A stretch of DNA of 64,000 bases from Phytophthora sp. 'mugwort' (Eukaryota > Oomycota > Peronosporomycetes > Peronosporales > Peronosporaceae), in contig JAUCEF010000004.1 of assembly GCA_033558025.1 (NCBI GenBank), forward strand, positions 1,798,001 through 1,862,000, given 5' to 3'. The notes under the pieces are model-generated. The model searched no databases, was not told the origin of the DNA, and saw only the letters and a list, made by a program, of their open reading frames with translations. Shown here piece by piece: positions 34,156-62,700 of the stretch (position 1 is the stretch's first letter; each line of letters starts with the position of its first letter). Position numbers and translations under genes: made by a program.

Positions 34156-34227
34156 GTCGAGGAAGTTGGAATTGATTCAAGTTTGGAAAGCAATGGTCGA
34201 TCGACCCGTGCGCTCCGTCACCAGCGA

Positions 34228-34482
34228 TTACCAGCCGTAGCCAATGCCGCCGAAGCCACCCCAGCGTCCCCATGGTCCCCATCCGTAGCCCCCCCATCCC
34301 GGGAAACCCTTGTGCCACCACTCCTTCTTGCCGTTCTCGGCGTCCGCGCTCTCCTTGTCGACAGGAACAGCAAAGCTGGGCGTGTCAGCCGCTGCGAGAG
34401 ATCTCAGTGCAGACGGACCGGCAGCGGTAGCGACGCCGGCACCAGCGACGAGGGCGGTGACGACGAAAGTAGTGAGCTTCAT
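34228..34482 (-). CDS. array unit 1: short secreted Gly/Trp-rich protein, 84 residues
   Basis: The start at 34482 is chosen because it begins a classical signal peptide (MKLTTFVVTALVAGAGVATA) and lies about 25 bp after an initiator-like element; the longer in-frame extension upstream is Arg-rich and reads through that element. The mature part is short: a polar region (DTPSFAVPVDKESADAENGKK) then EWWHKGFPGWGGYG and a Gly/Trp/Tyr tail ending YGW, with six Trp in the last 22 residues and no Cys. No known domain. The protein is identical in all 14 units. It is divergent from the 148-residue gene, 305 bp apart. Export is well supported; function is unknown. SALR at 24-27 only weakly recalls RxLR and is not accepted as one. 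This unit has G83 as GGC and G64 as GGG. Confidence 0.85.
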   Translation of the reverse strand: MKLTTFVVTALVAGAGVATAAGPSALRSLAAADTPSFAVPVDKESADAENGKKEWWHKGFPGWGGYGWGPWGRWGGFGGIGYGW

Positions 34483-34502
34483 GTTCGTTGCGGAAACTGT
34501 GC

Positions 34503-34509
34503 GAAGTGA
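34503..34509 (-). promoter_or_regulatory. initiator-like element of the short gene
   Basis: Minus strand reads CCTCACTTCGCACAGTTTCC; the core TCACTTC fits the oomycete initiator YCAYTYY and is followed by a CA-GTTT flank as in known promoters. It predicts a leader of about 25 nt. Confidence 0.55.
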
Positions 34510-34580
34510 GGCAAGTTGGTTTGTGTGAACTGGTGACACAATGGTTCGTTCAAAGCTGGTTTTGATGGAACCTCTTCTTC

Positions 34581-34615
34581 GTCTTCTCCAAGACGGCGTC
34601 AATCTTGAGGATTGA
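34581..34615. promoter_or_regulatory. two adjacent palindromes in the bidirectional promoter
   Basis: GTCTT-CTCC-AAGAC at 34581-34594 and TCAATC-TTGAG-GATTGA at 34599-34615. The first type also occurs as GTCTT-N4-AAGAC in the spacer remnants at 17501-17514 and 31823-31836, so it may be a shared control site of the gene family. Confidence 0.45.
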
Positions 34616-34737
34616 TTGAGTGCGCCAACTCGAACATTTATGTAGTGCAAGAAAAGTCCTCGATTTCGCGGGTATTTGTTCGCTTGGATGAAGGATTTAA
34701 CTTCCCTTGGAGGTGGAATCTTAGAACAGCCACAACT

Positions 34738-34744
34738 CCATTTG
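34738..34744 (+). promoter_or_regulatory. initiator-like element of the 148-residue gene
   Basis: CCATTTG, one base from the oomycete initiator core, about 45 bp before ATG. In units 9 and 11 it is changed to CAATTTG. Confidence 0.4.
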
Positions 34745-34787
34745 TTGCCAACATAACAAGTCGAGAATCAACACCACCATCACAGCC

Positions 34788-35234
34788 ATGAAGTTCAGCG
34801 TCTTCCTCGTCGCCATGATGGCCATTCTCGGTACTGTCGCCGCTGCTGACCAACCTGTCGTCAAGACTCCGACCGAAGCTCTCGAAAAGGTTCAAGCGTC
34901 TGCGTTACCCGATGGTGTCACGCTGATTGGAACTGCAGAGAAGATCGACCCTCCTGCTGGAGCTGCTACGACCATCGCGAAGGAAGCCCACAAGGACGAC
35001 GACAAGGAGCAGCTCGGTTTGGGCCTTGGCGGATGGGGACTCGGCGGTTGGGGACTCGGCGGTTGGGGTGGATGGGGCGGTTGGGGTGGCTTTGGCCCCT
35101 ACCGCTTCGGCTTCTTGCACGGCGGCTACCCTGGCTGGGCGTATCCGTTGGGTTACTGGAACCTGTTCGGCGCTGGTCTGTACGGCGGTGGGTGTGGTCT
35201 GGGCATTCCTTTCGGTGGTCTATACTATTGCTAG
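34788..35234 (+). CDS. array unit 1: secreted Gly/Trp-rich protein, 148 residues
   Basis: Signal peptide 1-20 (MKFSVFLVAMMAILGTVAAA), conserved segment 21-67 shared with the long paralogs (PTEALEKVQASALPDG; TLIGTAEKIDPPAG), a short charged joint HKDDDKEQ (68-75), a Gly/Trp block 76-103 with Trp at 83, 88, 93, 96 and 99, then PYRFGFLHGGYPGWAYPLGY and a Gly-rich tail with Cys 136 and a C-terminal Cys 148. No transmembrane segment or anchor signal follows the signal peptide, so secretion is expected; the two Cys could pair. No database domain is recognised. Divergent partner of the 84-residue gene. Codons at 39/42 are GCG/GAT. Confidence 0.87.
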   Translation: MKFSVFLVAMMAILGTVAAADQPVVKTPTEALEKVQASALPDGVTLIGTAEKIDPPAGAATTIAKEAHKDDDKEQLGLGLGGWGLGGWGLGGWGGWGGWGGFGPYRFGFLHGGYPGWAYPLGYWNLFGAGLYGGGCGLGIPFGGLYYC

Positions 35235-36277
35235 ATGGATTCAAGTAACCTCGGATTACCTCAAATGGCTAGCAGCTTACATTGTCGCCGAGGGTAGATC
35301 GACGTCGTAGGGTTAGCTTGCTATACATGCTTCCTTTCGTTATGAAGTTCTGAATTTGGTTTTCGATGGTCAATGACTAGCTAAAACAAGAAACTTATCG
35401 GGAATGATGCTACTAGCTCATGAGGCCAACGAAATTTTGTTGATCCTCTTTCCGTGGAACTTAATTGACAATTACAGCCGACGTTTGTGATGTATCATGT
35501 TCCTTGCTTTATTCAAAACAAACAACTGTTTTGTTTTTCGTTCTGATGATAGTATGTAGACCGCATGATCAAGACACTATTGAGCATATTAAACTCCCGA
35601 ATTATCGGCGGCAAGTACTACGTCCTTGACCCGTAGACTATTTGCGTCCTATACTGTACCTTAGACGTTTTGGGCGAAAAATTGTCTCAAATCAGTTTTC
35701 ATTTGGGTTACTAAAGTCACACCACGCGACTTTCACGAGCGCTGTGCTTGCGAGCTCGTGTGTAGAGGTCTACTAAACTGCATAAGAGCTTTACTCTATA
35801 ATGCCTCATCAGAACAACAAAAGCGTTTCGTCAGCAGAGTAAACCTGCCGAAATGCTGTTCCATCCATAAACGTTACTTTTAATTGCGGCACCAGGTAGC
35901 GGTATTTTCTAGATGGTTGTTTTGCCTGTTCACCTCGGGAAGAACGAGTTCTAGTTCCTCATCTTGCTCTACTACTACTACTACTAGGTCGACCTCACCC
36001 CCATTACAGCGACTCCCGCACCTCAACTAACACGTGTACAAACATTGTGGTGATGCTTCAAAAAGGTCAAACATCCTAAAAATGGCCCGAAATCCCTATT
36101 GGACCAGAATTACAAAAATGTGCGCATAAGCAGACACAACTTAACCTGCATTCGAAATACTGGTGCATGTTCAGCCCTAACTAGTGATATCACACGATAA
36201 CGGAAGTCGAGGAAGTTGGAATTGATTCAAGTTTGGAAAGCAATGGTCGATCGACCCGTGCGCTCCGTCACCAGCGA
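35235..36277. other. noncoding spacer between unit 1 and unit 2 (prototype of all array spacers)
   Basis: About 1,043 bp, containing the 3' flanks of the 148-residue gene and the next unit's short gene. No gene or known RNA is seen. It has an inverted pair AACAAACAACTG/CTGTTTTGTTTTTC-like near 35517 and a TAC run near 35970-35988 that varies by one trinucleotide between units. The same spacer recurs after each unit up to 60856 and, truncated, at 61864-62620. Confidence 0.75.
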
Positions 36278-36532
36278 TTACCATCCGTAGCCAATGCCGC
36301 CGAAGCCACCCCAGCGTCCCCATGGTCCCCATCCGTAGCCTCCCCATCCCGGGAAACCCTTGTGCCACCACTCCTTCTTGCCGTTCTCGGCGTCCGCGCT
36401 CTCCTTGTCGACAGGAACAGCAAAGCTGGGCGTGTCAGCCGCTGCGAGAGATCTCAGTGCAGACGGACCGGCAGCGGTAGCGACGCCGGCACCAGCGACG
36501 AGGGCGGTGACGACGAAAGTAGTGAGCTTCAT
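36278..36532 (-). CDS. array unit 2: short secreted Gly/Trp-rich protein
   Basis: Protein identical to unit 1. Silent variants: G83 GGA, G64 GGA. Confidence 0.85.
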   Translation of the reverse strand: MKLTTFVVTALVAGAGVATAAGPSALRSLAAADTPSFAVPVDKESADAENGKKEWWHKGFPGWGGYGWGPWGRWGGFGGIGYGW

Positions 36533-36837
36533 GTTCGTTGCGGAAACTGTGCGAAGTGAGGCAAGTTGGTTTGTGTGAACTGGTGACACAATGGTTCGTT
36601 CAGAGCTGGTTTTGATGGAACCTCTTCTTCGTCTTCTCCAAGACGGCGTCAATCTTGAGGATTGATTGAGTGCGCCAACTCGAACATTTATGTAGTGCAA
36701 GAAAAGTCCTCGATTTCGCGGGTATTTGTTCGCTTGGATGAAGGATTTAACTTCCCTTGGAGGTGGAATCTTAGAACAGCCACAACTCCATTTGTTGCCA
36801 ACATAACAAGTCGAGAATCAACACCACCATCACAGCC

Positions 36838-37284
36838 ATGAAGTTCAGCGTCTTCCTCGTCGCCATGATGGCCATTCTCGGTACTGTCGCCGCTGCTGAC
36901 CAACCTGTCGTCAAGACTCCGACCGAAGCTCTCGAAAAGGTTCAAGCGTCTGCCTTACCCGACGGTGTCACGCTGATTGGAACTGCAGAGAAGATCGACC
37001 CTCCTGCTGGAGCTGCTACGACCATCGCGAAGGAAGCCCACAAGGACGACGACAAGGAGCAGCTCGGTTTGGGCCTTGGCGGATGGGGACTCGGCGGTTG
37101 GGGACTCGGCGGTTGGGGTGGATGGGGCGGTTGGAGTGGCTTTGGCCCCTACCGCTTCGGCTTCTTGCACGGCGGCTACCCTGGCTGGGCGTATCCGTTG
37201 GGTTACTGGAACCTGTTCGGCGCTGGTCTGTACGGCGGTGGGTGTGGTCTGGGCATTCCTTTCGGTGGTCTATACTATTGCTAG
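36838..37284 (+). CDS. array unit 2: secreted Gly/Trp-rich protein, G100S variant
   Basis: 148 residues; one substitution, Gly100 to Ser in the last Trp repeat (GGWSGFG). The same change and a set of linked 3' flank variants occur only in unit 7, five units away. Codons 39/42 GCC/GAC. Confidence 0.87.
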   Translation: MKFSVFLVAMMAILGTVAAADQPVVKTPTEALEKVQASALPDGVTLIGTAEKIDPPAGAATTIAKEAHKDDDKEQLGLGLGGWGLGGWGLGGWGGWGGWSGFGPYRFGFLHGGYPGWAYPLGYWNLFGAGLYGGGCGLGIPFGGLYYC

Positions 37285-38328
37285 ATGGATTCAAGTAACC
37301 TCGGATTACCTCAAATGGCTAGCAGCTTACATTGTCGCCGAGGGTAGATCGACGTCGTAGGGTTAGCTTGCTATACATGCTTTCTTTCGTTATAAAGTTC
37401 TGAATTTGGTTTTCGGTGGTCAATGACTAGCTAAAACAAGAAACTTATCGGGAATGATGCTACTAGCTCATGAGGCCAACGAAGTTTTGTTGATCCTCTT
37501 TCCGTGGAACTTAATTGACAATTACAGCCGACGTTTGTGATGTATCATGTTCCTTGCTTTATTCAAAACAAACAACTGTTTTTGTTTCTCGTTCTGATGA
37601 TAGTGTGTAGACCGCATGATCAAGACACTATTGAGCATATTAAACTCCCGAATTATCGGCGGCAAGTACTACGTCCTTGACCCGTAGACTATTTGCGTCC
37701 TATACTGTACCTTAGACGTTTTGGGCGAAAAATTGTCTCAAATCAGTTTTCATTTGGGTTACTAAAGTCTCACCACGCGACTTTCACGAGCGCTGTGCTT
37801 GCGAGCTCGTGTGTAGAGGTCTACTAAACTGCATAAGAGCTTTACTCTATAATGCCTCATCAGAACAACAAAAGCGTTTCGTCAGCAGAGTAAACCTGCC
37901 GAAATGCTGTTCCATCCATAAACGTTACTTTTAATTGCGGCACCAGGTAGCGGTATTTTCTAGATGGTTGTTTTACCTGTTCACCTCGGGAAGAACGAGT
38001 TCTAGTTCCTCATCTTGCTCTACTACTACTACTACTAGGTCGACCTCACCCCCATTACAGCGACTCCCGCACCTCAACTAACACGTGTACAAACATTGTG
38101 GTGATGCTTCAAAAAGGTCAAACATCCTAAAAATGGCCCGAAATCCCTATTAGACCAGAATTACAAAAATGTGCGCATAAGCAGACACAACTTAACCTGC
38201 ATTCGAAATACTGGTGCATGTTCAGCCCTAACTAGTGATATCACACGATAACGGAAGTCGAGGAAGTTGGAATTGATTCAAGTTTGGAAAGCAATGGTCG
38301 ATCGACCCGTGCGCTCCGTCACCAGCGA

Positions 38329-38583
38329 TTACCATCCGTAGCCAATGCCGCCGAAGCCACCCCAGCGTCCCCATGGTCCCCATCCGTAGCCCCCCCATCC
38401 CGGGAAACCCTTGTGCCACCACTCCTTCTTGCCGTTCTCGGCGTCCGCGCTCTCCTTGTCGACAGGAACAGCAAAGCTGGGCGTGTCAGCCGCTGCGAGA
38501 GATCTCAGTGCAGACGGACCGGCAGCGGTAGCGACGCCGGCACCAGCGACGAGGGCGGTGACGACGAAAGTAGTGAGCTTCAT
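38329..38583 (-). CDS. array unit 3: short secreted Gly/Trp-rich protein
   Basis: Protein identical to unit 1. G83 GGA, G64 GGG; the leader carries the TTCAAAGC variant shared with units 1 and 14. Confidence 0.85.
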   Translation of the reverse strand: MKLTTFVVTALVAGAGVATAAGPSALRSLAAADTPSFAVPVDKESADAENGKKEWWHKGFPGWGGYGWGPWGRWGGFGGIGYGW

Positions 38584-38888
38584 GTTCGTTGCGGAAACTG
38601 TGCGAAGTGAGGCAAGTTGGTTTGTGTGAACTGGTGACACAATGGTTCGTTCAAAGCTGGTTTTGATGGAACCTCTTCTTCGTCTTCTCCAAGACGGCGT
38701 CAATCTTGAGGATTGATTGAGTGCGCCAACTCGAACATTTATGTAGTGCAAGAAAAGTCCTCGATTTCGCGGGTATTTGTTCGCTTGGATGAAGGATTTA
38801 ACTTCCCTTGGAGGTGGAATCTTAGAACAGCCACAACTCCATTTGTTGCCAACATAACAAGTCGAGAATCAACACCACCATCACAGCC

Positions 38889-39335
38889 ATGAAGTTCAGC
38901 GTCTTCCTCGTCGCCATGATGGCCATTCTCGGTACTGTCGCCGCTGCTGACCAACCTGTCGTCAAGACTCCGACCGAAGCTCTCGAAAAGGTTCAAGCGT
39001 CTGCCTTACCCGACGGTGTCACGCTGATTGGAACTGCAGAGAAGATCGACCCTCCTGCTGGAGCTGCTACGACCATCGCGAAGGAAGCCCACAAGGACGA
39101 CGACAAGGAGCAGCTCGGTTTGGGCCTTGGCGGATGGGGACTCGGCGGTTGGGGACTCGGCGGTTGGGGTGGATGGGGCGGTTGGGGTGGCTTTGGCCCC
39201 TACCGCTTCGGCTTCTTGCACGGCGGCTACCCTGGCTGGGCGTATCCGTTGGGTTACTGGAACCTGTTCGGCGCTGGTCTGTACGGCGGTGGGTGTGGTC
39301 TGGGCATTCCTTTCGGTGGTCTATACTATTGCTAG
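38889..39335 (+). CDS. array unit 3: secreted Gly/Trp-rich protein, 148 residues
   Basis: Protein identical to unit 1. Codons 39/42 GCC/GAC. Confidence 0.87.
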   Translation: MKFSVFLVAMMAILGTVAAADQPVVKTPTEALEKVQASALPDGVTLIGTAEKIDPPAGAATTIAKEAHKDDDKEQLGLGLGGWGLGGWGLGGWGGWGGWGGFGPYRFGFLHGGYPGWAYPLGYWNLFGAGLYGGGCGLGIPFGGLYYC

Positions 39336-40375: not shown

Positions 40376-40630
40376 TTACCATCCGTAGCCAATGCCGCCG
40401 AAGCCACCCCAGCGTCCCCATGGTCCCCATCCGTAGCCTCCCCATCCCGGGAAACCCTTGTGCCACCACTCCTTCTTGCCGTTCTCGGCGTCCGCGCTCT
40501 CCTTGTCGACAGGAACAGCAAAGCTGGGCGTGTCAGCCGCTGCGAGAGATCTCAGTGCAGACGGACCGGCAGCGGTAGCGACGCCGGCACCAGCGACGAG
40601 GGCGGTGACGACGAAAGTAGTGAGCTTCAT
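40376..40630 (-). CDS. array unit 4: short secreted Gly/Trp-rich protein
   Basis: Protein identical to unit 1. G83 GGA, G64 GGA. The spacer to its left has one TAC fewer than the spacers after units 1 and 2. Confidence 0.85.
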   Translation of the reverse strand: MKLTTFVVTALVAGAGVATAAGPSALRSLAAADTPSFAVPVDKESADAENGKKEWWHKGFPGWGGYGWGPWGRWGGFGGIGYGW

Positions 40631-40935
40631 GTTCGTTGCGGAAACTGTGCGAAGTGAGGCAAGTTGGTTTGTGTGAACTGGTGACACAATGGTTCGTTCA
40701 GAGCTGGTTTTGATGGAACCTCTTCTTCGTCTTCTCCAAGACGGCGTCAATCTTGAGGATTGATTGAGTGCGCCAACTCGAACATTTATGTAGTGCAAGA
40801 AAAGTCCTCGATTTCGCGGGTATTTGTTCGCTTGGATGAAGGATTTAACTTCCCTTGGAGGTGGAATCTTAGAACAGCCACAACTCCATTTGTTGCCAAC
40901 ATAACAAGTCGAGAATCAACACCACCATCACAGCC

Positions 40936-41382
40936 ATGAAGTTCAGCGTCTTCCTCGTCGCCATGATGGCCATTCTCGGTACTGTCGCCGCTGCTGACCA
41001 ACCTGTCGTCAAGACTCCGACCGAAGCTCTCGAAAAGGTTCAAGCGTCTGCCTTACCCGACGGTGTCACGCTGATTGGAACTGCAGAGAAGATCGACCCT
41101 CCTGCTGGAGCTGCTACGACCATCGCGAAGGAAGCCCACAAGGACGACGACAAGGAGCAGCTCGGTTTGGGCCTTGGCGGATGGGGACTCGGCGGTTGGG
41201 GACTCGGCGGTTGGGGTGGATGGGGCGGTTGGGGTGGCTTTGGCCCCTACCGCTTCGGCTTCTTGCACGGCGGCTACCCTGGCTGGGCGTATCCGTTGGG
41301 TTACTGGAACCTGTTCGGCGCTGGTCTGTACGGCGGTGGGTGTGGTCTGGGCATTCCTTTCGGTGGTCTATACTATTGCTAG
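40936..41382 (+). CDS. array unit 4: secreted Gly/Trp-rich protein, 148 residues
   Basis: Protein identical to unit 1. Codons GCC/GAC; the 3' flank has GGATTGCC instead of GGATTACC, shared with units 6, 9, 11 and 13. Confidence 0.87.
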   Translation: MKFSVFLVAMMAILGTVAAADQPVVKTPTEALEKVQASALPDGVTLIGTAEKIDPPAGAATTIAKEAHKDDDKEQLGLGLGGWGLGGWGLGGWGGWGGWGGFGPYRFGFLHGGYPGWAYPLGYWNLFGAGLYGGGCGLGIPFGGLYYC

Positions 41383-42422: not shown

Positions 42423-42677
42423 TTACCAGCCGTAGCCAATGCCGCCGAAGCCACCCCAGCGTCCCCATGGTCCCCATCCGTAGCCCCCCCATCCCGGGAA
42501 ACCCTTGTGCCACCACTCCTTCTTGCCGTTCTCGGCGTCCGCGCTCTCCTTGTCGACAGGAACAGCAAAGCTGGGCGTGTCAGCCGCTGCGAGAGATCTC
42601 AGTGCAGACGGACCGGCAGCGGTAGCGACGCCGGCACCAGCGACGAGGGCGGTGACGACGAAAGTAGTGAGCTTCAT
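42423..42677 (-). CDS. array unit 5: short secreted Gly/Trp-rich protein
   Basis: Protein identical to unit 1. G83 GGC, G64 GGG. Confidence 0.85.
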   Translation of the reverse strand: MKLTTFVVTALVAGAGVATAAGPSALRSLAAADTPSFAVPVDKESADAENGKKEWWHKGFPGWGGYGWGPWGRWGGFGGIGYGW

Positions 42678-42982: not shown

Positions 42983-43429
42983 ATGAAGTTCAGCGTCTTC
43001 CTCGTCGCCATGATGGCCATTCTCGGTACTGTCGCCGCTGCTGACCAACCTGTCGTCAAGACTCCGACCGAAGCTCTCGAAAAGGTTCAAGCGTCTGCGT
43101 TACCCGATGGTGTCACGCTGATTGGAACTGCAGAGAAGATCGACCCTCCTGCTGGAGCTGCTACGACCATCGCGAAGGAAGCCCACAAGGACGACGACAA
43201 GGAGCAGCTCGGTTTGGGCCTTGGCGGATGGGGACTCGGCGGTTGGGGACTCGGCGGTTGGGGTGGATGGGGCGGTTGGGGTGGCTTTGGCCCCTACCGC
43301 TTCGGCTTCTTGCACGGCGGCTACCCTGGCTGGGCGTATCCGTTGGGTTACTGGAACCTGTTCGGCGCTGGTCTGTACGGCGGTGGGTGTGGTCTGGGCA
43401 TTCCTTTCGGTGGTCTATACTATTGCTAG
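42983..43429 (+). CDS. array unit 5: secreted Gly/Trp-rich protein, 148 residues
   Basis: Protein identical to unit 1, with the same GCG/GAT codon pair at 39/42. Confidence 0.87.
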   Translation: MKFSVFLVAMMAILGTVAAADQPVVKTPTEALEKVQASALPDGVTLIGTAEKIDPPAGAATTIAKEAHKDDDKEQLGLGLGGWGLGGWGLGGWGGWGGWGGFGPYRFGFLHGGYPGWAYPLGYWNLFGAGLYGGGCGLGIPFGGLYYC

Positions 43430-44469: not shown

Positions 44470-44724
44470 TTACCATCCGTAGCCAATGCCGCCGAAGCCA
44501 CCCCAGCGTCCCCATGGTCCCCATCCGTAGCCTCCCCATCCCGGGAAACCCTTGTGCCACCACTCCTTCTTGCCGTTCTCGGCGTCCGCGCTCTCCTTGT
44601 CGACAGGAACAGCAAAGCTGGGCGTGTCAGCCGCTGCGAGAGATCTCAGTGCAGACGGACCGGCAGCGGTAGCGACGCCGGCACCAGCGACGAGGGCGGT
44701 GACGACGAAAGTAGTGAGCTTCAT
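44470..44724 (-). CDS. array unit 6: short secreted Gly/Trp-rich protein
   Basis: Protein identical to unit 1. G83 GGA, G64 GGA. Confidence 0.85.
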   Translation of the reverse strand: MKLTTFVVTALVAGAGVATAAGPSALRSLAAADTPSFAVPVDKESADAENGKKEWWHKGFPGWGGYGWGPWGRWGGFGGIGYGW

Positions 44725-45029: not shown

Positions 45030-45476
45030 ATGAAGTTCAGCGTCTTCCTCGTCGCCATGATGGCCATTCTCGGTACTGTCGCCGCTGCTGACCAACCTGT
45101 CGTCAAGACTCCGACCGAAGCTCTCGAAAAGGTTCAAGCGTCTGCCTTACCCGACGGTGTCACGCTGATTGGAACTGCAGAGAAGATCGACCCTCCTGCT
45201 GGAGCTGCTACGACCATCGCGAAGGAAGCCCACAAGGACGACGACAAGGAGCAGCTCGGTTTGGGCCTTGGCGGATGGGGACTCGGCGGTTGGGGACTCG
45301 GCGGTTGGGGTGGATGGGGCGGTTGGGGTGGCTTTGGCCCCTACCGCTTCGGCTTCTTGCACGGCGGCTACCCTGGCTGGGCGTATCCGTTGGGTTACTG
45401 GAACCTGTTCGGCGCTGGTCTGTACGGCGGTGGGTGTGGTCTGGGCATTCCTTTCGGTGGTCTATACTATTGCTAG
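45030..45476 (+). CDS. array unit 6: secreted Gly/Trp-rich protein, 148 residues
   Basis: Protein identical to unit 1. Codons GCC/GAC, GGATTGCC flank. Its downstream spacer has the long TAC run and the CTATTGGACC variant seen after unit 1. Confidence 0.87.
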   Translation: MKFSVFLVAMMAILGTVAAADQPVVKTPTEALEKVQASALPDGVTLIGTAEKIDPPAGAATTIAKEAHKDDDKEQLGLGLGGWGLGGWGLGGWGGWGGWGGFGPYRFGFLHGGYPGWAYPLGYWNLFGAGLYGGGCGLGIPFGGLYYC

Positions 45477-46519: not shown

Positions 46520-46774
46520 TTACCATCCGTAGCCAATGCCGCCGAAGCCACCCCAGCGTCCCCATGGTCCCCATCCGTAGCCTCCCCATCCCGGGAAACC
46601 CTTGTGCCACCACTCCTTCTTGCCGTTCTCGGCGTCCGCGCTCTCCTTGTCGACAGGAACAGCAAAGCTGGGCGTGTCAGCCGCTGCGAGAGATCTCAGT
46701 GCAGACGGACCGGCAGCGGTAGCGACGCCGGCACCAGCGACGAGGGCGGTGACGACGAAAGTAGTGAGCTTCAT
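46520..46774 (-). CDS. array unit 7: short secreted Gly/Trp-rich protein
   Basis: Protein identical to unit 1. G83 GGA, G64 GGA, as in unit 2. Confidence 0.85.
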   Translation of the reverse strand: MKLTTFVVTALVAGAGVATAAGPSALRSLAAADTPSFAVPVDKESADAENGKKEWWHKGFPGWGGYGWGPWGRWGGFGGIGYGW

Positions 46775-47079: not shown

Positions 47080-47526
47080 ATGAAGTTCAGCGTCTTCCTC
47101 GTCGCCATGATGGCCATTCTCGGTACTGTCGCCGCTGCTGACCAACCTGTCGTCAAGACTCCGACCGAAGCTCTCGAAAAGGTTCAAGCGTCTGCCTTAC
47201 CCGACGGTGTCACGCTGATTGGAACTGCAGAGAAGATCGACCCTCCTGCTGGAGCTGCTACGACCATCGCGAAGGAAGCCCACAAGGACGACGACAAGGA
47301 GCAGCTCGGTTTGGGCCTTGGCGGATGGGGACTCGGCGGTTGGGGACTCGGCGGTTGGGGTGGATGGGGCGGTTGGAGTGGCTTTGGCCCCTACCGCTTC
47401 GGCTTCTTGCACGGCGGCTACCCTGGCTGGGCGTATCCGTTGGGTTACTGGAACCTGTTCGGCGCTGGTCTGTACGGCGGTGGGTGTGGTCTGGGCATTC
47501 CTTTCGGTGGTCTATACTATTGCTAG
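47080..47526 (+). CDS. array unit 7: secreted Gly/Trp-rich protein, G100S variant
   Basis: Carries the G100S change and the 3' flank variants of unit 2 (TTCGTTATAAAG, TTTTCGGTGG, AAGTCTCACC). Confidence 0.87.
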   Translation: MKFSVFLVAMMAILGTVAAADQPVVKTPTEALEKVQASALPDGVTLIGTAEKIDPPAGAATTIAKEAHKDDDKEQLGLGLGGWGLGGWGLGGWGGWGGWSGFGPYRFGFLHGGYPGWAYPLGYWNLFGAGLYGGGCGLGIPFGGLYYC

Positions 47527-48570: not shown

Positions 48571-48825
48571 TTACCATCCGTAGCCAATGCCGCCGAAGCC
48601 ACCCCAGCGTCCCCATGGTCCCCATCCGTAGCCCCCCCATCCCGGGAAACCCTTGTGCCACCACTCCTTCTTGCCGTTCTCGGCGTCCGCGCTCTCCTTG
48701 TCGACAGGAACAGCAAAGCTGGGCGTGTCAGCCGCTGCGAGAGATCTCAGTGCAGACGGACCGGCAGCGGTAGCGACGCCGGCACCAGCGACGAGGGCGG
48801 TGACGACGAAAGTAGTGAGCTTCAT
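48571..48825 (-). CDS. array unit 8: short secreted Gly/Trp-rich protein
   Basis: Protein identical to unit 1. G83 GGA, G64 GGG, as in unit 3. Confidence 0.85.
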   Translation of the reverse strand: MKLTTFVVTALVAGAGVATAAGPSALRSLAAADTPSFAVPVDKESADAENGKKEWWHKGFPGWGGYGWGPWGRWGGFGGIGYGW

Positions 48826-49130: not shown

Positions 49131-49577
49131 ATGAAGTTCAGCGTCTTCCTCGTCGCCATGATGGCCATTCTCGGTACTGTCGCCGCTGCTGACCAACCTG
49201 TCGTCAAGACTCCGACCGAAGCTCTCGAAAAGGTTCAAGCGTCTGCGTTACCCGATGGTGTCACGCTGATTGGAACTGCAGAGAAGATCGACCCTCCTGC
49301 TGGAGCTGCTACGACCATCGCGAAGGAAGCCCACAAGGACGACGACAAGGAGCAGCTCGGTTTGGGCCTTGGCGGATGGGGACTCGGCGGTTGGGGACTC
49401 GGCGGTTGGGGTGGATGGGGCGGTTGGGGTGGCTTTGGCCCCTACCGCTTCGGCTTCTTGCACGGCGGCTACCCTGGCTGGGCGTATCCGTTGGGTTACT
49501 GGAACCTGTTCGGCGCTGGTCTGTACGGCGGTGGGTGTGGTCTGGGCATTCCTTTCGGTGGTCTATACTATTGCTAG
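49131..49577 (+). CDS. array unit 8: secreted Gly/Trp-rich protein, 148 residues
   Basis: Protein identical to unit 1. Codons GCG/GAT, so the match to unit 3 has ended by here. Confidence 0.87.
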   Translation: MKFSVFLVAMMAILGTVAAADQPVVKTPTEALEKVQASALPDGVTLIGTAEKIDPPAGAATTIAKEAHKDDDKEQLGLGLGGWGLGGWGLGGWGGWGGWGGFGPYRFGFLHGGYPGWAYPLGYWNLFGAGLYGGGCGLGIPFGGLYYC

Positions 49578-50618: not shown

Positions 50619-50873
50619 TTACCATCCGTAGCCAATGCCGCCGAAGCCACCCCAGCGTCCCCATGGTCCCCATCCGTAGCCTCCCCATCCCGGGAAACCC
50701 TTGTGCCACCACTCCTTCTTGCCGTTCTCGGCGTCCGCGCTCTCCTTGTCGACAGGAACAGCAAAGCTGGGCGTGTCAGCCGCTGCGAGAGATCTCAGTG
50801 CAGACGGACCGGCAGCGGTAGCGACGCCGGCACCAGCGACGAGGGCGGTGACGACGAAAGTAGTGAGCTTCAT
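50619..50873 (-). CDS. array unit 9: short secreted Gly/Trp-rich protein
   Basis: Protein identical to unit 1. G83 GGA, G64 GGA. A one-base change in the promoter (CAATTTG) lengthens the upstream open frame, without consequence for the chosen start. Confidence 0.85.
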   Translation of the reverse strand: MKLTTFVVTALVAGAGVATAAGPSALRSLAAADTPSFAVPVDKESADAENGKKEWWHKGFPGWGGYGWGPWGRWGGFGGIGYGW

Positions 50874-51178: not shown

Positions 51179-51625
51179 ATGAAGTTCAGCGTCTTCCTCG
51201 TCGCCATGATGGCCATTCTCGGTACTGTCGCCGCTGCTGACCAACCTGTCGTCAAGACTCCGACCGAAGCTCTCGAAAAGGTTCAAGCGTCTGCCTTACC
51301 CGACGGTGTCACGCTGATTGGAACTGCAGAGAAGATCGACCCTCCTGCTGGAGCTGCTACGACCATCGCGAAGGAAGCCCACAAGGACGACGACAAGGAG
51401 CAGCTCGGTTTGGGCCTTGGCGGATGGGGACTCGGCGGTTGGGGACTCGGCGGTTGGGGTGGATGGGGCGGTTGGGGTGGCTTTGGCCCCTACCGCTTCG
51501 GCTTCTTGCACGGCGGCTACCCTGGCTGGGCGTATCCGTTGGGTTACTGGAACCTGTTCGGCGCTGGTCTGTACGGCGGTGGGTGTGGTCTGGGCATTCC
51601 TTTCGGTGGTCTATACTATTGCTAG
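51179..51625 (+). CDS. array unit 9: secreted Gly/Trp-rich protein, 148 residues
   Basis: Protein identical to unit 1. Codons GCC/GAC; the initiator-like element is altered to CAATTTG, as in unit 11. Confidence 0.87.
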   Translation: MKFSVFLVAMMAILGTVAAADQPVVKTPTEALEKVQASALPDGVTLIGTAEKIDPPAGAATTIAKEAHKDDDKEQLGLGLGGWGLGGWGLGGWGGWGGWGGFGPYRFGFLHGGYPGWAYPLGYWNLFGAGLYGGGCGLGIPFGGLYYC

Positions 51626-52666: not shown

Positions 52667-52921
52667 TTACCAGCCGTAGCCAATGCCGCCGAAGCCACCC
52701 CAGCGTCCCCATGGTCCCCATCCGTAGCCCCCCCATCCCGGGAAACCCTTGTGCCACCACTCCTTCTTGCCGTTCTCGGCGTCCGCGCTCTCCTTGTCGA
52801 CAGGAACAGCAAAGCTGGGCGTGTCAGCCGCTGCGAGAGATCTCAGTGCAGACGGACCGGCAGCGGTAGCGACGCCGGCACCAGCGACGAGGGCGGTGAC
52901 GACGAAAGTAGTGAGCTTCAT
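52667..52921 (-). CDS. array unit 10: short secreted Gly/Trp-rich protein
   Basis: Protein identical to unit 1. From this unit to unit 14 all copies have G83 GGC and G64 GGG. Confidence 0.85.
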   Translation of the reverse strand: MKLTTFVVTALVAGAGVATAAGPSALRSLAAADTPSFAVPVDKESADAENGKKEWWHKGFPGWGGYGWGPWGRWGGFGGIGYGW

Positions 52922-53226: not shown

Positions 53227-53673
53227 ATGAAGTTCAGCGTCTTCCTCGTCGCCATGATGGCCATTCTCGGTACTGTCGCCGCTGCTGACCAACCTGTCGT
53301 CAAGACTCCGACCGAAGCTCTCGAAAAGGTTCAAGCGTCTGCGTTACCCGATGGTGTCACGCTGATTGGAACTGCAGAGAAGATCGACCCTCCTGCTGGA
53401 GCTGCTACGACCATCGCGAAGGAAGCCCACAAGGACGACGACAAGGAGCAGCTCGGTTTGGGCCTTGGCGGATGGGGACTCGGCGGTTGGGGACTCGGCG
53501 GTTGGGGTGGATGGGGCGGTTGGGGTGGCTTTGGCCCCTACCGCTTCGGCTTCTTGCACGGCGGCTACCCTGGCTGGGCGTATCCGTTGGGTTACTGGAA
53601 CCTGTTCGGCGCTGGTCTGTACGGCGGTGGGTGTGGTCTGGGCATTCCTTTCGGTGGTCTATACTATTGCTAG
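53227..53673 (+). CDS. array unit 10: secreted Gly/Trp-rich protein, 148 residues
   Basis: Protein identical to unit 1. Codons GCG/GAT. Confidence 0.87.
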   Translation: MKFSVFLVAMMAILGTVAAADQPVVKTPTEALEKVQASALPDGVTLIGTAEKIDPPAGAATTIAKEAHKDDDKEQLGLGLGGWGLGGWGLGGWGGWGGWGGFGPYRFGFLHGGYPGWAYPLGYWNLFGAGLYGGGCGLGIPFGGLYYC

Positions 53674-54714: not shown

Positions 54715-54969
54715 TTACCAGCCGTAGCCAATGCCGCCGAAGCCACCCCAGCGTCCCCATGGTCCCCATCCGTAGCCCCCCCATCCCGGGAAACCCTTGT
54801 GCCACCACTCCTTCTTGCCGTTCTCGGCGTCCGCGCTCTCCTTGTCGACAGGAACAGCAAAGCTGGGCGTGTCAGCCGCTGCGAGAGATCTCAGTGCAGA
54901 CGGACCGGCAGCGGTAGCGACGCCGGCACCAGCGACGAGGGCGGTGACGACGAAAGTAGTGAGCTTCAT
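54715..54969 (-). CDS. array unit 11: short secreted Gly/Trp-rich protein
   Basis: Protein identical to unit 1. Confidence 0.85.
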   Translation of the reverse strand: MKLTTFVVTALVAGAGVATAAGPSALRSLAAADTPSFAVPVDKESADAENGKKEWWHKGFPGWGGYGWGPWGRWGGFGGIGYGW

Positions 54970-55274: not shown

Positions 55275-55721
55275 ATGAAGTTCAGCGTCTTCCTCGTCGC
55301 CATGATGGCCATTCTCGGTACTGTCGCCGCTGCTGACCAACCTGTCGTCAAGACTCCGACCGAAGCTCTCGAAAAGGTTCAAGCGTCTGCCTTACCCGAC
55401 GGTGTCACGCTGATTGGAACTGCAGAGAAGATCGACCCTCCTGCTGGAGCTGCTACGACCATCGCGAAGGAAGCCCACAAGGACGACGACAAGGAGCAGC
55501 TCGGTTTGGGCCTTGGCGGATGGGGACTCGGCGGTTGGGGACTCGGCGGTTGGGGTGGATGGGGCGGTTGGGGTGGCTTTGGCCCCTACCGCTTCGGCTT
55601 CTTGCACGGCGGCTACCCTGGCTGGGCGTATCCGTTGGGTTACTGGAACCTGTTCGGCGCTGGTCTGTACGGCGGTGGGTGTGGTCTGGGCATTCCTTTC
55701 GGTGGTCTATACTATTGCTAG
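55275..55721 (+). CDS. array unit 11: secreted Gly/Trp-rich protein, 148 residues
   Basis: Protein identical to unit 1. Codons GCC/GAC; promoter variant CAATTTG shared with unit 9. Confidence 0.87.
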   Translation: MKFSVFLVAMMAILGTVAAADQPVVKTPTEALEKVQASALPDGVTLIGTAEKIDPPAGAATTIAKEAHKDDDKEQLGLGLGGWGLGGWGLGGWGGWGGWGGFGPYRFGFLHGGYPGWAYPLGYWNLFGAGLYGGGCGLGIPFGGLYYC

Positions 55722-56760: not shown

Positions 56761-57015
56761 TTACCAGCCGTAGCCAATGCCGCCGAAGCCACCCCAGCGT
56801 CCCCATGGTCCCCATCCGTAGCCCCCCCATCCCGGGAAACCCTTGTGCCACCACTCCTTCTTGCCGTTCTCGGCGTCCGCGCTCTCCTTGTCGACAGGAA
56901 CAGCAAAGCTGGGCGTGTCAGCCGCTGCGAGAGATCTCAGTGCAGACGGACCGGCAGCGGTAGCGACGCCGGCACCAGCGACGAGGGCGGTGACGACGAA
57001 AGTAGTGAGCTTCAT
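56761..57015 (-). CDS. array unit 12: short secreted Gly/Trp-rich protein
   Basis: Protein identical to unit 1. A one-base insertion in the promoter near 57156 breaks the upstream in-frame extension seen in other units but leaves the 84-residue frame intact, which supports the downstream start. Confidence 0.87.
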   Translation of the reverse strand: MKLTTFVVTALVAGAGVATAAGPSALRSLAAADTPSFAVPVDKESADAENGKKEWWHKGFPGWGGYGWGPWGRWGGFGGIGYGW

Positions 57016-57321
57016 GTTCGTTGCGGAAACTGTGCGAAGTGAGGCAAGTTGGTTTGTGTGAACTGGTGACACAATGGTTCGTTCAGAGCTGGTTTTGATG
57101 GAACCTCTTCTTCGTCTTCTCCAAGACGGCGTCAATCTTGAGGATTGATTGAGTGCCGCCAACTCGAACATTTATGTAGTGCAAGAAAAGTCCTCGATTT
57201 CGCGGGTATTTGTTCGCTTGGATGAAGGATTTAACTTCCCTTGGAGGTGGAATCTTAGAACAGCCACAACTCCATTTGTTGCCAACATAACAAGTCGAGA
57301 ATCAACACCACCATCACAGCC

Positions 57322-57768
57322 ATGAAGTTCAGCGTCTTCCTCGTCGCCATGATGGCCATTCTCGGTACTGTCGCCGCTGCTGACCAACCTGTCGTCAAGA
57401 CTCCGACCGAAGCTCTCGAAAAGGTTCAAGCGTCTGCCTTACCCGACGGTGTCACGCTGATTGGAACTGCAGAGAAGATCGACCCTCCTGCTGGAGCTGC
57501 TACGACCATCGCGAAGGAAGCCCACAAGGACGACGACAAGGAGCAGCTCGGTTTGGGCCTTGGCGGATGGGGACTCGGCGGTTGGGGACTCGGCGGTTGG
57601 GGTGGATGGGGCGGTTGGGGTGGCTTTGGCCCCTACCGCTTCGGCTTCTTGCACGGCGGCTACCCTGGCTGGGCGTATCCGTTGGGTTACTGGAACCTGT
57701 TCGGCGCTGGTCTGTACGGCGGTGGGTGTGGTCTGGGCATTCCTTTCGGTGGTCTATACTATTGCTAG
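57322..57768 (+). CDS. array unit 12: secreted Gly/Trp-rich protein, 148 residues
   Basis: Protein identical to unit 1. Codons GCC/GAC. The following spacer has small deletions (CTATATGTACC; CTCTAATGCC). Confidence 0.87.
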   Translation: MKFSVFLVAMMAILGTVAAADQPVVKTPTEALEKVQASALPDGVTLIGTAEKIDPPAGAATTIAKEAHKDDDKEQLGLGLGGWGLGGWGLGGWGGWGGWGGFGPYRFGFLHGGYPGWAYPLGYWNLFGAGLYGGGCGLGIPFGGLYYC

Positions 57769-58808
57769 ATGGATTCAAGTAACCTCGGATTACCTCAAAT
57801 GGCTAGCAGCTTACATTGTCGCCGAGGGTAGATCGACGTCGTAGGGTTAGCTTGCTATACATGCTCCTTTCGTTATGAAGTTCTGAATTTGGTTTTCGAT
57901 GGTCAATGACTAGCTAAAACAAGAAACTTATCGGGAATGATGCTACTAGCTCATGAGGCCAACGAAATTTTGTTGATCCTCTTTCCGTGGAACTTAATTG
58001 ACAATTACAGCCGACGTTTGTGATGTATCATGTTCCTTGCTTTATTCAAAACAAACAACTGTTTTTGTTTCTCGTTCTGATGATAGTATGTAGACCGCAT
58101 GATCAAGACACTATTGAGCATATTAAACTCCCGAACTATCGGCGGCAAGTACTACGTCCTTGACCCGTAGACTATTTGCGTCCTATATGTACCTTAGACG
58201 TTTTGGGCGAAAAATTGTCTCAAATCAGTTTTCATTTGGGTTATTAAAGTCACACCACGCGACTTTCACGAGCGCTGTGCTTGCGAGCTCGTGTGTGAAG
58301 GTCTACTAAACTGCATAAGAGCTTTACTCTAATGCCTCATCAGAACAACAAAAGAGTTTCGTCAGCAGAGTAAACCTGCCGAAATGCTGTTCCATCCATA
58401 AACGTTACTTTTAATTGCGGCACCAGGTAGCGGTATTTTCTAGATGGTTGTTTTGCCTGTTCACCTCGGGAAGAACGAGTTCTAGTTCCTCATCTTGCTC
58501 TACTACTACTACTACTAGGTCGACCTCACCCCCATTACAGCGACTCCCGCACCTCAACTAACACGTGTACAAACATTGTGGTGATGCTTCAAAAAGGTCA
58601 AACATCCTAAAAATGGCCCGAAATCCCTATTGGACCAGAATTACAAAAATGTGCGCATAAGCAGACACAACTTAACCTGCATTCGAAATACTGGTGCATG
58701 TTCAGCCCTAACTAGTGATATCACACGATAACGGAAGTCGAGGAAGTTGGAATTGATTCAAGTTTGGAAAGCAATGGTCGATCGACCCGTGCGCTCCGTC
58801 ACCAGCGA

Positions 58809-59063
58809 TTACCAGCCGTAGCCAATGCCGCCGAAGCCACCCCAGCGTCCCCATGGTCCCCATCCGTAGCCCCCCCATCCCGGGAAACCCTTGTGCCACC
58901 ACTCCTTCTTGCCGTTCTCGGCGTCCGCGCTCTCCTTGTCGACAGGAACAGCAAAGCTGGGCGTGTCAGCCGCTGCGAGAGATCTCAGTGCAGACGGACC
59001 GGCAGCGGTAGCGACGCCGGCACCAGCGACGAGGGCGGTGACGACGAAAGTAGTGAGCTTCAT
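58809..59063 (-). CDS. array unit 13: short secreted Gly/Trp-rich protein
   Basis: Protein identical to unit 1. Confidence 0.85.
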   Translation of the reverse strand: MKLTTFVVTALVAGAGVATAAGPSALRSLAAADTPSFAVPVDKESADAENGKKEWWHKGFPGWGGYGWGPWGRWGGFGGIGYGW

Positions 59064-59368
59064 GTTCGTTGCGGAAACTGTGCGAAGTGAGGCAAGTTGG
59101 TTTGTGTGAACTGGTGACACAATGGTTCGTTCAGAGCTGGTTTTGATGGAACCTCTTCTTCGTCTTCTCCAAGACGGCGTCAATCTTGAGGATTGATTGA
59201 GTGCGCCAACTCGAACATTTATGTAGTGCAAGAAAAGTCCTCGATTTCGCGGGTATTTGTTCGCTTGGATGAAGGATTTAACTTCCCTTGGAGGTGGAAT
59301 CTTAGAACAGCCACAACTCCATTTGTTGCCAACATAACAAGTCGAGAATCAACACCACCATCACAGCC

Positions 59369-59815
59369 ATGAAGTTCAGCGTCTTCCTCGTCGCCATGAT
59401 GGCCATTCTCGGTACTGTCGCCGCTGCTGACCAACCTGTCGTCAAGACTCCGACCGAAGCTCTCGAAAAGGTTCAAGCGTCTGCCTTACCCGACGGTGTC
59501 ACGCTGATTGGAACTGCAGAGAAGATCGACCCTCCTGCTGGAGCTGCTACGACCATCGCGAAGGAAGCCCACAAGGACGACGACAAGGAGCAGCTCGGTT
59601 TGGGCCTTGGCGGATGGGGACTCGGCGGTTGGGGACTCGGAGGCTGGGGTGGCTGGGGCGGTTGGGGTGGCTTTGGCCCCTACCGCTTCGGCTTCTTGCA
59701 CGGCGGCTACCCTGGCTGGGCGTATCCGTTGGGTTACTGGAACCTGTTCGGCGCTGGTCTGTACGGCGGTGGGTGTGGTCTGGGCATTCCTTTCGGTGGT
59801 CTATACTATTGCTAG
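59369..59815 (+). CDS. array unit 13: secreted Gly/Trp-rich protein with paralog-like silent tract
   Basis: Protein identical to unit 1, but 59641-59653 carries three silent differences that match the long paralogs at 16021 and 31042 (GGAGGCTGGGGTGGCTGGGG) rather than the other 13 units. Confidence 0.87.
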   Translation: MKFSVFLVAMMAILGTVAAADQPVVKTPTEALEKVQASALPDGVTLIGTAEKIDPPAGAATTIAKEAHKDDDKEQLGLGLGGWGLGGWGLGGWGGWGGWGGFGPYRFGFLHGGYPGWAYPLGYWNLFGAGLYGGGCGLGIPFGGLYYC

Positions 59816-60856
59816 ATGGATTCAAGTAACCTCGGATTGCCTCAAATGGCTAGCAGCTTACATCGTCGCCGAGGGTAGATCGACGTCGTAGGGTTAGCTT
59901 GCTATACATGCTTCCTTTCGTTATGAAGTTCTGAATTTGGTTTTCGATGGTCAATGACTAGCTAAAACAAGAAACTTATCGGGAATGATGCTACTAGCTC
60001 ATGAGGCCAACGAAATTTTGTTGATCCTCTTTCCGTGGAACTTAATTGACAATTACAGCCGACGTTTGTGATGTATCATGTTCCTTGCTTTATTCAAAAC
60101 AAACAACTGTTTTTGTTTCTCGTTCTGATGATAGTATGTAGACCGCATGATCAAGACACTATTGAGCATATTAAACTCCCGAATTATCGGCGGCAAGTAC
60201 TACGTCCTTGACCCGTAGACTATTTGCGTCCTATACTGTACCTTAGACGTTTTGGGCGAAAAATTGTCTCAAATCAGTTTTCATTTGGGTTACTAAAGTC
60301 ACACCACGCGACTTTCACGAGCGCTGTGCTTGCGAGCTCGTGTGTAGAGGTCTACTAAACTGCATAAGAGCTTTACTCTATAATGCCTCATCAGAACAAC
60401 AAAAGCGTTTCGTCAGCAGAGTAAACCTGCCGAAATGCTGTTCCATCCATAAACGTTACTTTTAATTGCGGCACCAGGTAGCGGTATTTTCTAGATGGTT
60501 GTTTTGCCTGTTCACCTCGGGAAGAACGAGTTCTAGTTCCTCATCTTGCTCTACTACTACTACTAGGTCGACCTCACCCCCATTACAGCGACTCCCGCAC
60601 CTCAACTAACACGTGTACAAACATTGTGGTGATGCTTCAAAAAGGTCAAACATCCTAAAAATGGCCCGAAATCCCTATTGGACCAGAATTACAAAAATGT
60701 GCGCATAAGCAGACACAACTTAACCTGCATTCGAAATACTGGTGCATGTTCAGCCCTAACTAGTGATATCACACGATAACGGAAGTCGAGGAAGTTGGAA
60801 TTGATTCAAGTTTGGAAAGCAATGGTCGATCGACCCGTGCGCTCCGTCACCAGCGA

Positions 60857-61111
60857 TTACCAGCCGTAGCCAATGCCGCCGAAGCCACCCCAGCGTCCCC
60901 ATGGTCCCCATCCGTAGCCCCCCCATCCCGGGAAACCCTTGTGCCACCACTCCTTCTTGCCGTTCTCGGCGTCCGCGCTCTCCTTGTCGACAGGAACAGC
61001 AAAGCTGGGCGTGTCAGCCGCTGCGAGAGATCTCAGTGCAGACGGACCGGCAGCGGTAGCGACGCCGGCACCAGCGACGAGGGCGGTGACGACGAAAGTA
61101 GTGAGCTTCAT
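60857..61111 (-). CDS. array unit 14: short secreted Gly/Trp-rich protein
   Basis: Protein identical to unit 1; the leader has the TTCAAAGC variant of units 1 and 3. Confidence 0.85.
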   Translation of the reverse strand: MKLTTFVVTALVAGAGVATAAGPSALRSLAAADTPSFAVPVDKESADAENGKKEWWHKGFPGWGGYGWGPWGRWGGFGGIGYGW

Positions 61112-61416
61112 GTTCGTTGCGGAAACTGTGCGAAGTGAGGCAAGTTGGTTTGTGTGAACTGGTGACACAATGGTTCGTTCAAAGCTGGTTTTGATGGAAC
61201 CTCTTCTTCGTCTTCTCCAAGACGGCGTCAATCTTGAGGATTGATTGAGTGCGCCAACTCGAACATTTATGTAGTGCAAGAAAAGTCCTCGATTTCGCGG
61301 GTATTTGTTCGCTTGGATGAAGGATTTAACTTCCCTTGGAGGTGGAATCTTAGAACAGCCACAACTCCATTTGTTGCCAACATAACAAGTCGAGAATCAA
61401 CACCACCATCACAGCC

Positions 61417-61863
61417 ATGAAGTTCAGCGTCTTCCTCGTCGCCATGATGGCCATTCTCGGTACTGTCGCCGCTGCTGACCAACCTGTCGTCAAGACTCCG
61501 ACCGAAGCTCTCGAAAAGGTTCAAGCGTCTGCGTTACCCGACGGTGTCACGCTGATTGGAACTGCAGAGAAGATCGACCCTCCTGCTGGAGCTGCTACGA
61601 CCATCGCGAAGGAAGCCCACAAGGACGACGACAAGGAGCAGCTCGGTTTGGGCCTTGGCGGATGGGGACTCGGCGGTTGGGGACTCGGCGGTTGGGGTGG
61701 ATGGGGCGGTTGGGGTGGCTTTGGCCCCTACCGCTTCGGCTTCTTGCACGGCGGCTACCCTGGCTGGGCGTATCCGTTGGGTTACTGGAACCTGTTCGGC
61801 GCTGGTCTGTACGGCGGTGGGTGTGGTCTGGGCATTCCTTTCGGTGGTCTATACTATTGCTAG
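61417..61863 (+). CDS. array unit 14: secreted Gly/Trp-rich protein, 148 residues
   Basis: Protein identical to unit 1. Codons at 39/42 are the mixed pair GCG/GAC, unique in the array. It is the last complete gene; its 3' spacer runs to 62620. Confidence 0.87.
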   Translation: MKFSVFLVAMMAILGTVAAADQPVVKTPTEALEKVQASALPDGVTLIGTAEKIDPPAGAATTIAKEAHKDDDKEQLGLGLGGWGLGGWGLGGWGGWGGWGGFGPYRFGFLHGGYPGWAYPLGYWNLFGAGLYGGGCGLGIPFGGLYYC

Positions 61864-62620
61864 ATGGATTCAAGTAACCTCGGATTACCTCAAATGGCTA
61901 GCAGCTTACATTGTCGCCGAGGGTAGATCGACGTCGTAGGGTTAGCTTGCTATACATGCTTCCTTTCGTTATGAAGTTCTGAATTTGGTTTTCGATGGTC
62001 AATGACTAGCTAAAACAAGAAACTTATCGGGAATGATGCTACTAGCTCATGAGGCCAACGAAATTTTGTTGATCCTCTTTCCGTGGAACTTAATTGACAA
62101 TTACAGCCGACGTTTGTGATGTATCATGTTCCTTGCTTTATTCAAAACAAACAACTGTTTTTGTTTCTCGTTCTGATGATAGTATGTAGACCGCATGATC
62201 AAGACACTATTGAGCATATTAAACTCCCGAACTATCGGCGGCAAGTACTACGTCCTTGACCCGTAGACTATTTGCGTCCTATACTGTACCTTAGACGTTT
62301 TGGGCGAAAAATTGTCTCAAATCAGTTTTCATTTGGGTTATTAAAGTCACACCACGCGACTTTCACGAGCGCTGTGCTTGCGAGCTCGTGTGTAGAGGTC
62401 TACTAAACTGCATAAGAGCTTTACTCTATAATGCCTCATCAGAACAACAAAAGCGTTTCGTCAGCAGAGTAAACCTGCCGAAATGCTGTTCCATCCATAA
62501 ACGTTACTTTTAATTGCGGCACCAGGTAGCGGTATTTTCTAGATGGTTGTTTTGCCTGTTCACCTCGGGAAGAACGAGTTCTAGTTCCTCATCTTGATCT
62601 ACTACTACTGCTACTAGGTC

Positions 62621-62700
62621 TGTCTGGCGCTGGTCGGTACGGCGGCGGGTGATAATAAAAAAAATCGTTTTTGCTAGCTACCGCTAAACACGAACCCTAA
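62621..62700. other. right junction of the array with a displaced gene fragment
   Basis: Immediately after the TAC run the spacer homology ends and about 27 bp (TGGCGCTGGT-GGTACGGCGG) resemble the codons for GAGLYGGG near the end of the 148-residue gene, followed by an A run. Confidence 0.6.

Follow-up and report, generated by a model that had tools for sequence, protein, structure and literature searches.

A tandem array of head-to-head gene pairs for apparently secreted Gly/Trp-rich proteins in Phytophthora sp. 'mugwort'

Among described oomycete proteins, those closest to the system reported here are the M96 proteins of Phytophthora. In the passages devoted to them they are secreted, rich in Gly, Ser and Tyr, encoded in tandem clusters that undergo concerted evolution and induced more than 100-fold in mating, and a role in the wall or extracellular matrix has been proposed (PMC5999078). 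We analyzed a 64,000-nucleotide stretch of the genome of Phytophthora sp. 'mugwort' (C4:1798001-1862000, where C4 is contig JAUCEF010000004.1; referred to as the window), in which fourteen tandem units each carry two genes, arranged head to head, for apparently secreted Gly/Trp-rich proteins of 84 and 148 residues.

The array resembles M96 in secretion (judged here by inspection only), in glycine richness, in its many tandem copies and in concerted evolution (PMC5999078). The proteins themselves differ. By the description in that source, mature M96 proteins measure 271 residues in the median, with an N-terminal third that is His-rich and a remainder rich in Gly, Ser and Tyr, whereas the array proteins, at 148 and 84 residues, contain 2 and 1 His, respectively, and are set apart from M96 by that description. 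M96 is stated there to have no match in Pythium, whereas the family of the 148-residue protein is present in that genus, and the passages on M96 describe no two-gene units (PMC5999078). On this comparison, we take the pair to work like the M96 arrays and not to be a member of M96.

Two other cases are more distant. The loricrin-like protein PiLLP of P. infestans is likewise a glycine-rich oomycete protein, but the passages describing it give it 308 residues, 12.7% Gly and no signal peptide (PMC5298957). PITG_17477 and PITG_06957, also of P. infestans, are glycine-rich too, belong to the predicted secretome and are discussed beside adhesins; they differ in having simple repeats, lengths of 374 and 247 residues and one and no paralogue, respectively, and no tandem pairs are described in the passages about them (PMC3091767). 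By themselves, large tandem arrays are nothing unusual in oomycetes: the part of the report on Pythium myriotylum that deals with them counts 1,666, the largest comprising 22 genes (PMC9430622).

An earlier reading of the window, made from the sequence only, knew of no described oomycete family with this layout. This holds in that neither protein was found described in the open-licence literature, searched by topic and by the P. infestans and P. sojae locus tags of family members and their neighbours. It goes too far in that the family of the 148-residue protein is already in sequence collections (141 homologues) and in that tandem Gly-rich arrays are known from the passages on M96 (PMC5999078).

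Layout, extent and homogeneity of the array

The fourteen units lie head to tail at 34156-62620 of the window and start at 34156, 36206, 38257 and so on to 60785, with a start-to-start spacing of 2046-2051 bp. Each has an open reading frame (ORF) for the 84-residue protein on the minus strand, head to head with an ORF for the 148-residue protein on the plus strand. The start codons are separated by 305 bp (ATG positions 306 bp apart) in 13 of the 14 units and by 306 bp (307) in unit 12. None of the 28 ORFs is interrupted, and every unit begins where the sequence-only reading, which had proposed 14 units and 28 genes, had placed it. The 84-residue protein is one identical sequence across all 14 units, and the 148-residue protein is identical in 12, the remaining two (units 2 and 7) having Gly100Ser in common. 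Unit 14 is cut at unit position 1832; within the window the array stops there, at 62620, and an insert starts.

34156..62620, tandem units, 14 x 2.05 kb, first part of a 106-kb array
34228..34482 (-), 84-residue gene, unit 1
34483..34787, ATG-to-ATG intergenic region of 305 bp, putative two-way promoter, unit 1; counterpart in every unit
34788..35234 (+), 148-residue gene, unit 1
36278..36532 (-), 84-residue gene, unit 2
36838..37284 (+), 148-residue gene, unit 2, Gly100Ser
38329..38583 (-), 84-residue gene, unit 3
38889..39335 (+), 148-residue gene, unit 3
40376..40630 (-), 84-residue gene, unit 4
40936..41382 (+), 148-residue gene, unit 4
42423..42677 (-), 84-residue gene, unit 5
42983..43429 (+), 148-residue gene, unit 5
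44470..44724 (-), 84-residue gene, unit 6
45030..45476 (+), 148-residue gene, unit 6
46520..46774 (-), 84-residue gene, unit 7
47080..47526 (+), 148-residue gene, unit 7, Gly100Ser
48571..48825 (-), 84-residue gene, unit 8
49131..49577 (+), 148-residue gene, unit 8
50619..50873 (-), 84-residue gene, unit 9
51179..51625 (+), 148-residue gene, unit 9
52667..52921 (-), 84-residue gene, unit 10
53227..53673 (+), 148-residue gene, unit 10
54715..54969 (-), 84-residue gene, unit 11
55275..55721 (+), 148-residue gene, unit 11
56761..57015 (-), 84-residue gene, unit 12
57322..57768 (+), 148-residue gene, unit 12
58809..59063 (-), 84-residue gene, unit 13
59369..59815 (+), 148-residue gene, unit 13
60857..61111 (-), 84-residue gene, unit 14
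61417..61863 (+), 148-residue gene, unit 14

Searching the genome (86.26 Mb in 154 contigs) with both proteins gave a total of 37 pairs, in which all 74 ORFs are open. In a BLAST comparison of one unit with the retrieved regions, 36 units were placed at C4:1,832,156-1,938,167 and a single inverted unit near 1,990,764. The 84-residue protein had 37 matches, every one in the array region or the inverted outlier. The 148-residue protein had 61, made up of 37 full-length copies in the array or the outlier, a 93% copy at C4:775652 and 23 others that are diverged, partial or chance matches. DNA searches with the two unit ends (38 of 38 and 40 of 46 candidates scored) listed no further units elsewhere in the genome. 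"Fourteen-unit", as the array had been called, is thus right as a count for the window and too low for the array; "divergent" fits the transcription of the two genes within a unit and not the unit copies, which are alike.

The array is interrupted seven times at one and the same junction, where a unit ends at position 1832, the insert follows and the next unit restarts at 1022 (7/7). The inserts are ~4.6 kb long, the last one ~6 kb, and the blocks of units between them number 14, 6, 2, 4, 2, 1 and 7. In the first insert, the one examined for domains, we found the reverse-transcriptase domain RVT_1 (E 2.5e-19), of the long interspersed nuclear element (LINE) type.

62621..64000 (+), left portion of the first insert (of seven); the LINE-type reverse-transcriptase domain lies further right, beyond the window

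Three inserts aligned whole are ~99.5% identical, and the other four, aligned piecewise (two of these in the left part only), are 97.5-99.8% identical to the first. Their near-identity and common junction point to a single insertion event, duplicated together with the units. We rejected the alternative that each 4.6-kb gap arose from a transposon insertion of its own, since the junctions are the same in 7 of 7 cases and the inserts are 97.5-99.8% identical to the first where compared. A similar insert adjoins the inverted copy and matches the first at 95-98.6%. Versions with ~1.4 kb extra are found at the right array edge (C4:1938167-1944206) and beside the inverted copy (C4:1982919-1988924).

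Over 1820 nt, pairwise identity among the 37 units ranges from 98.4 to 100% (mean 99.12%), and the window units are 99.53% alike among themselves versus 98.89% to the downstream units. The minor state is found in at least two units in 48 of 68 substitution columns (79 of 108 when gap columns are counted singly). This sharing of variants across units is as expected from concerted evolution through unequal exchange and gene conversion. A 28-kb run of 99.5%-identical units, such as that in the window, is hard to assemble, and a few real units could have been inflated by mis-assembly of reads. We consider this very improbable: the 37 units comprise 36 distinct sequences with 68 substitution columns, and the inserts split the array into blocks of differing size.

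The two proteins and their relatives

Both proteins begin with Met-Lys, a hydrophobic core and an Ala-rich cleavage region, as judged by inspection, and are apparently secreted. Gly and Trp account for 51% of residues 75-148 in the longer protein and for 61% of the 33 C-terminal residues in the shorter one, which bears out the Gly/Trp-rich C-termini proposed for both. Neither matched a Pfam family up to E = 1 or an NCBIfam model. The sequence-only reading had also called for homology searches with the two proteins, and these had opposite outcomes: for the 148-residue protein, 141 homologues reached E <= 0.001 in the protein collection, and for the 84-residue protein none was found beyond the array.

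Our description of the 148-residue family rests on the best 120 of the 141 homologues; a profile search gave 174 matches (best 120 of 174 listed, 7984 best candidates scored). The named homologues among the matches listed are oomycetes, namely Phytophthora (many), Peronospora, Plasmopara, Hyaloperonospora, Nothophytophthora and Globisporangium, and Pythium oligandrum and Pythium insidiosum are listed as well. The closest named protein among them is from P. pseudosyringae (79% identity), and members include PITG_16400, PITG_09495, PHYSODRAFT_335335 and PHYPSEUDO_003647. Most homologues are named hypothetical; other names are uncharacterised, 'Glycine-rich protein' (in Pythium oligandrum) and, in some cases, 'RxLR effector protein', which UniRef assigns automatically. 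In P. cactorum, the gene model GQ600_20114 contains two near-identical 148-type copies.

Homology covers most or all of the 148-residue length, and a C-terminal motif is common to complete members. We aligned 70 sequences, of which 67 were drawn from the 120 listed homologues and 3 came from this genome; shorter or cut models were mostly excluded. Invariant in this alignment are P41, G98, R106, G108, G116, W117, A118, P120, W124, G128, G134, C136 and C148. The two cysteines among them occur in all 70 members, and truncated models (e.g. P0065, P0117) are without that part. The array protein has both the full-length homology and the C-terminal motif with the two invariant cysteines and is, by homology, a member of this uncharacterised oomycete family. 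At position 111, 54 of the 70 have Cys and the array protein has His; since this third Cys is absent from 16 of 70, it is not family-defining. The array copy differs from the common family form by His111 and by its amplification with an 84-residue partner.

A structure model of the 148-residue protein has a mean predicted local distance difference test score (pLDDT) of 65 and a predicted template modelling score (pTM) of 0.55. The model is thus of moderate quality overall and better in its C-terminal domain, which consists of strands and a helix, with block means of 65-89. Fold comparison gave no match: the best E was 7.3 against the PDB and 3.2 against viral structures. A DnaJ match in the Gly-rich part, from a profile search against PDB sequences (E 0.092), was taken as composition.

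Pythium oligandrum, employed in biocontrol, is a mycoparasite and Pythium insidiosum an animal pathogen, and neither lives mainly on plants. A host-specific role is therefore unlikely for the 148-residue family, which spans plant pathogens, downy mildews and these two species. This range bears on the possibility that the pair are amplified apoplastic effectors, secreted toward the host to act outside or on plant cells, with the copies raising the dose. Small, apparently secreted proteins next to transposon remnants would fit such a role, as would the 'RxLR effector protein' names, and effector amplification in Phytophthora is exemplified by the four near-identical tandem copies of Avr1a in the passages describing them (PMC2661136). 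We nevertheless think it unlikely, because neither window protein, of 84 or of 148 residues, has an RxLR motif or a Pfam match, because amino-acid changes among the copies are under-represented, not favoured (see below), and because the family is also listed from the two Pythium species.

For the 84-residue protein, a word-based search against 5.8 billion proteins, with 5 candidates scored, found no homologue at E <= 0.001. Its matches in the genome at E <= 10 (43 candidates scored) were its own 37 copies and three weak matches inside 148-type genes (E 0.03-0.12). Conversely, the 148-residue query matched two copies of the 84-residue gene (C4:1897651-1897932 and C4:1926175-1926456, both on the minus strand) with E 7.9e-4 and 32% identity. 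These cross-matches between the partners may reflect distant kinship or merely common composition.

The DNA around the start of the 84-residue gene has relatives at C4:1,969k, C4:777.8k and C18:2,168.9k that appear to be decayed 84-type starts. The first consists of the intergenic region and a frameshifted 148-type gene, head to head; the second adjoins a broken 148-type fragment, also head to head; and the third is without a 148 gene and close to a Mutator-like element (MULE) transposase frame. The three are closely alike, and their homology to the array sits on the promoter side (82% over 61 bp for the C18 relic). The coding part of the 84-residue gene was scored against the relic stretches, with 200 shuffles each, and gave 54 versus a shuffled maximum of 49 (1969k), 49 versus 49 (C18) and 53 versus 55 (778k); the relic coding parts resemble the array gene hardly more than shuffled sequence does. 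If they are rightly read as 84-type starts, their arrangement suggests that the head-to-head pair predates the array and would survive intact only there.

Coding constraint and the possible role of the pair

Across the 37 units, the 148-residue gene is shorter by 9 nt in two copies and by 15 nt in two others, all in frame. Nucleotide diversity amounts to 0.72% for the 84-residue coding sequence, 0.53% for the intergenic region (the lowest of any unit region), 0.75% for the 148-residue coding sequence and 1.17% for the 3' spacer; the same regions, in this order, have 3.14, 3.59, 2.68 and 4.76 variable sites per 100 bp, with region borders drawn to within one base. We compared amino-acid-changing (N) and silent (S) codon variants against a binomial expectation of ~75% N sites. 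The 84-residue gene has 4 N : 4 S in 37 copies (p = 0.11), and the 148-residue gene has 4 N : 8 S in its 33 full-length copies, the 4 shorter ones being dropped (p = 0.0025); both genes jointly, uncorrected, have 8 N of 20 (p = 0.0008). Three S changes of the 148-residue gene (codons 91, 92 and 95) always co-occur and are likely one event. With linked S changes counted once, p is 0.018 for this gene and 0.005 for the two jointly (8 N of 18). Because amino-acid changes are fewer than expected, constraint on the 148-residue gene is supported. Purifying selection on the two coding sequences taken together is likewise supported by these counts.

The shorter gene might still be a passenger, with only the 148-residue gene functional: its ORF could be incidental to a two-way promoter, or it could be a recent gene carried along when the unit was amplified. 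Its variants, taken alone, are not significant, no homologue was found for it at E <= 0.001, its matches in the genome at E <= 10 are confined to the array and the weak ones inside 148-type genes, and the coding parts of the relics match it hardly better than shuffled sequence. On the other hand, its ORF is open in 37 of 37 copies, with 5 protein variants, its signal-peptide-like start and Gly/Trp-rich end resemble those of its partner, and the relics of its start and promoter (C18:2,168.9k, C4:1,969k, C4:777.8k), of which two face 148-type sequence head to head, suggest that the gene is older. We therefore regard the passenger explanation as rather doubtful, though it is the least so of the alternatives.

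In the reading that we tentatively put first, with a little less than even confidence, the array raises the dosage of two co-expressed, secreted Gly/Trp-rich proteins, which probably form part of the wall or extracellular matrix of the oomycete itself. Such a structural or coating role is favoured by the apparent secretion, the Gly/Trp-rich ends, the conservation of the family across varied hosts and the lack of a known enzymatic domain. Both proteins would be exported, and the 305-bp intergenic region would drive both genes as a divergent promoter, with the many copies allowing abundant production, possibly at a single life stage. In the matrix, the two proteins would associate through their Gly/Trp/Tyr-rich parts, and a disulphide might form between the two invariant cysteines of the 148-residue protein. 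Unequal exchange between units would expand and homogenise the array.

Several observations weigh against this dosage reading. The 84-residue gene by itself shows no significant selection signal, and GC content by codon position hardly distinguishes its frame. Low diversity may stem from gene conversion rather than selection. An initiator-like motif lies 28 nt before the ATG of the 84-residue gene, and no such motif was found upstream of the 148-residue gene. Some 148-residue homologues bear the automatic effector name, so an effector role retains some probability. Finally, the other 148-family members in the genome show no 84-type partner in a genome search at E <= 10, so the 148-residue protein would not always depend on the 84-residue one.

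We consider unlikely, as a more specific proposal, a two-component material in which the proteins co-assemble via their Gly/Trp-rich ends into a coat or adhesive, their ratio kept by amplifying the pair at least 37-fold. That amplification of the pair fixes the ratio of its products is reasonable but unproven. Most of what is known of oomycete walls and spore coats concerns their polysaccharides, and a widespread, apparently secreted 148-type family that has a conserved motif and no function assigned to it, here amplified to dozens of copies together with an orphan 84-residue partner, would offer an entry point to the protein part of such coats. The array is also an example, marked by transposons, of concerted evolution that affects two paired genes rather than one gene.

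Other 148-type copies and neighbouring features

The 93% copy at C4:775652 matches the unit to position 383 only and has no 84-type relic beside it; a candidate relic at 775k was dismissed with a score of 25 versus a shuffled maximum of 47. Remote relatives of 123/124 residues are found on contig C13, at L033:3906-4277 (-), L033:5357-5731 (+) and L034:8314-8688 (-). Two of them stand head to head, ~1.1 kb apart, and no 84-type gene was found there by search. Two diverged members of the family lie in the window itself.

31042..31581 (+), diverged 148-family paralogue, 179 residues, expanded acidic repeat; no 84-type partner found
16021..16542 (-), diverged 148-family paralogue, 173 residues, inverted counterpart of 31042-31581; no 84-type partner found

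To the left of the array, the single frame examined there gave no Pfam match. The two paralogues are carried, one on each arm, by an inverted repeat at window positions 15970-17059 and 30525-31632, and both have an expanded acidic (KDDDND) repeat. The arms are ~1.1 kb long with 13.5 kb between them, and are complementary at 100% over 824 nt and 98% over 372 nt. Between them, the ORF 18816-19295 (-) resembles by eye part of a tyrosine recombinase of a DIRS/Ngaro-like element. The frame 6108-7001 (-) matches Pfam DDE_Tnp_1_7 ('Transposase IS4', E 1e-18), and the frame 10960-11481 (+) contains a Band 7 / SPFH domain (E 1.5e-10) and, by eye, may be the 5' portion of a gene for a prohibitin.

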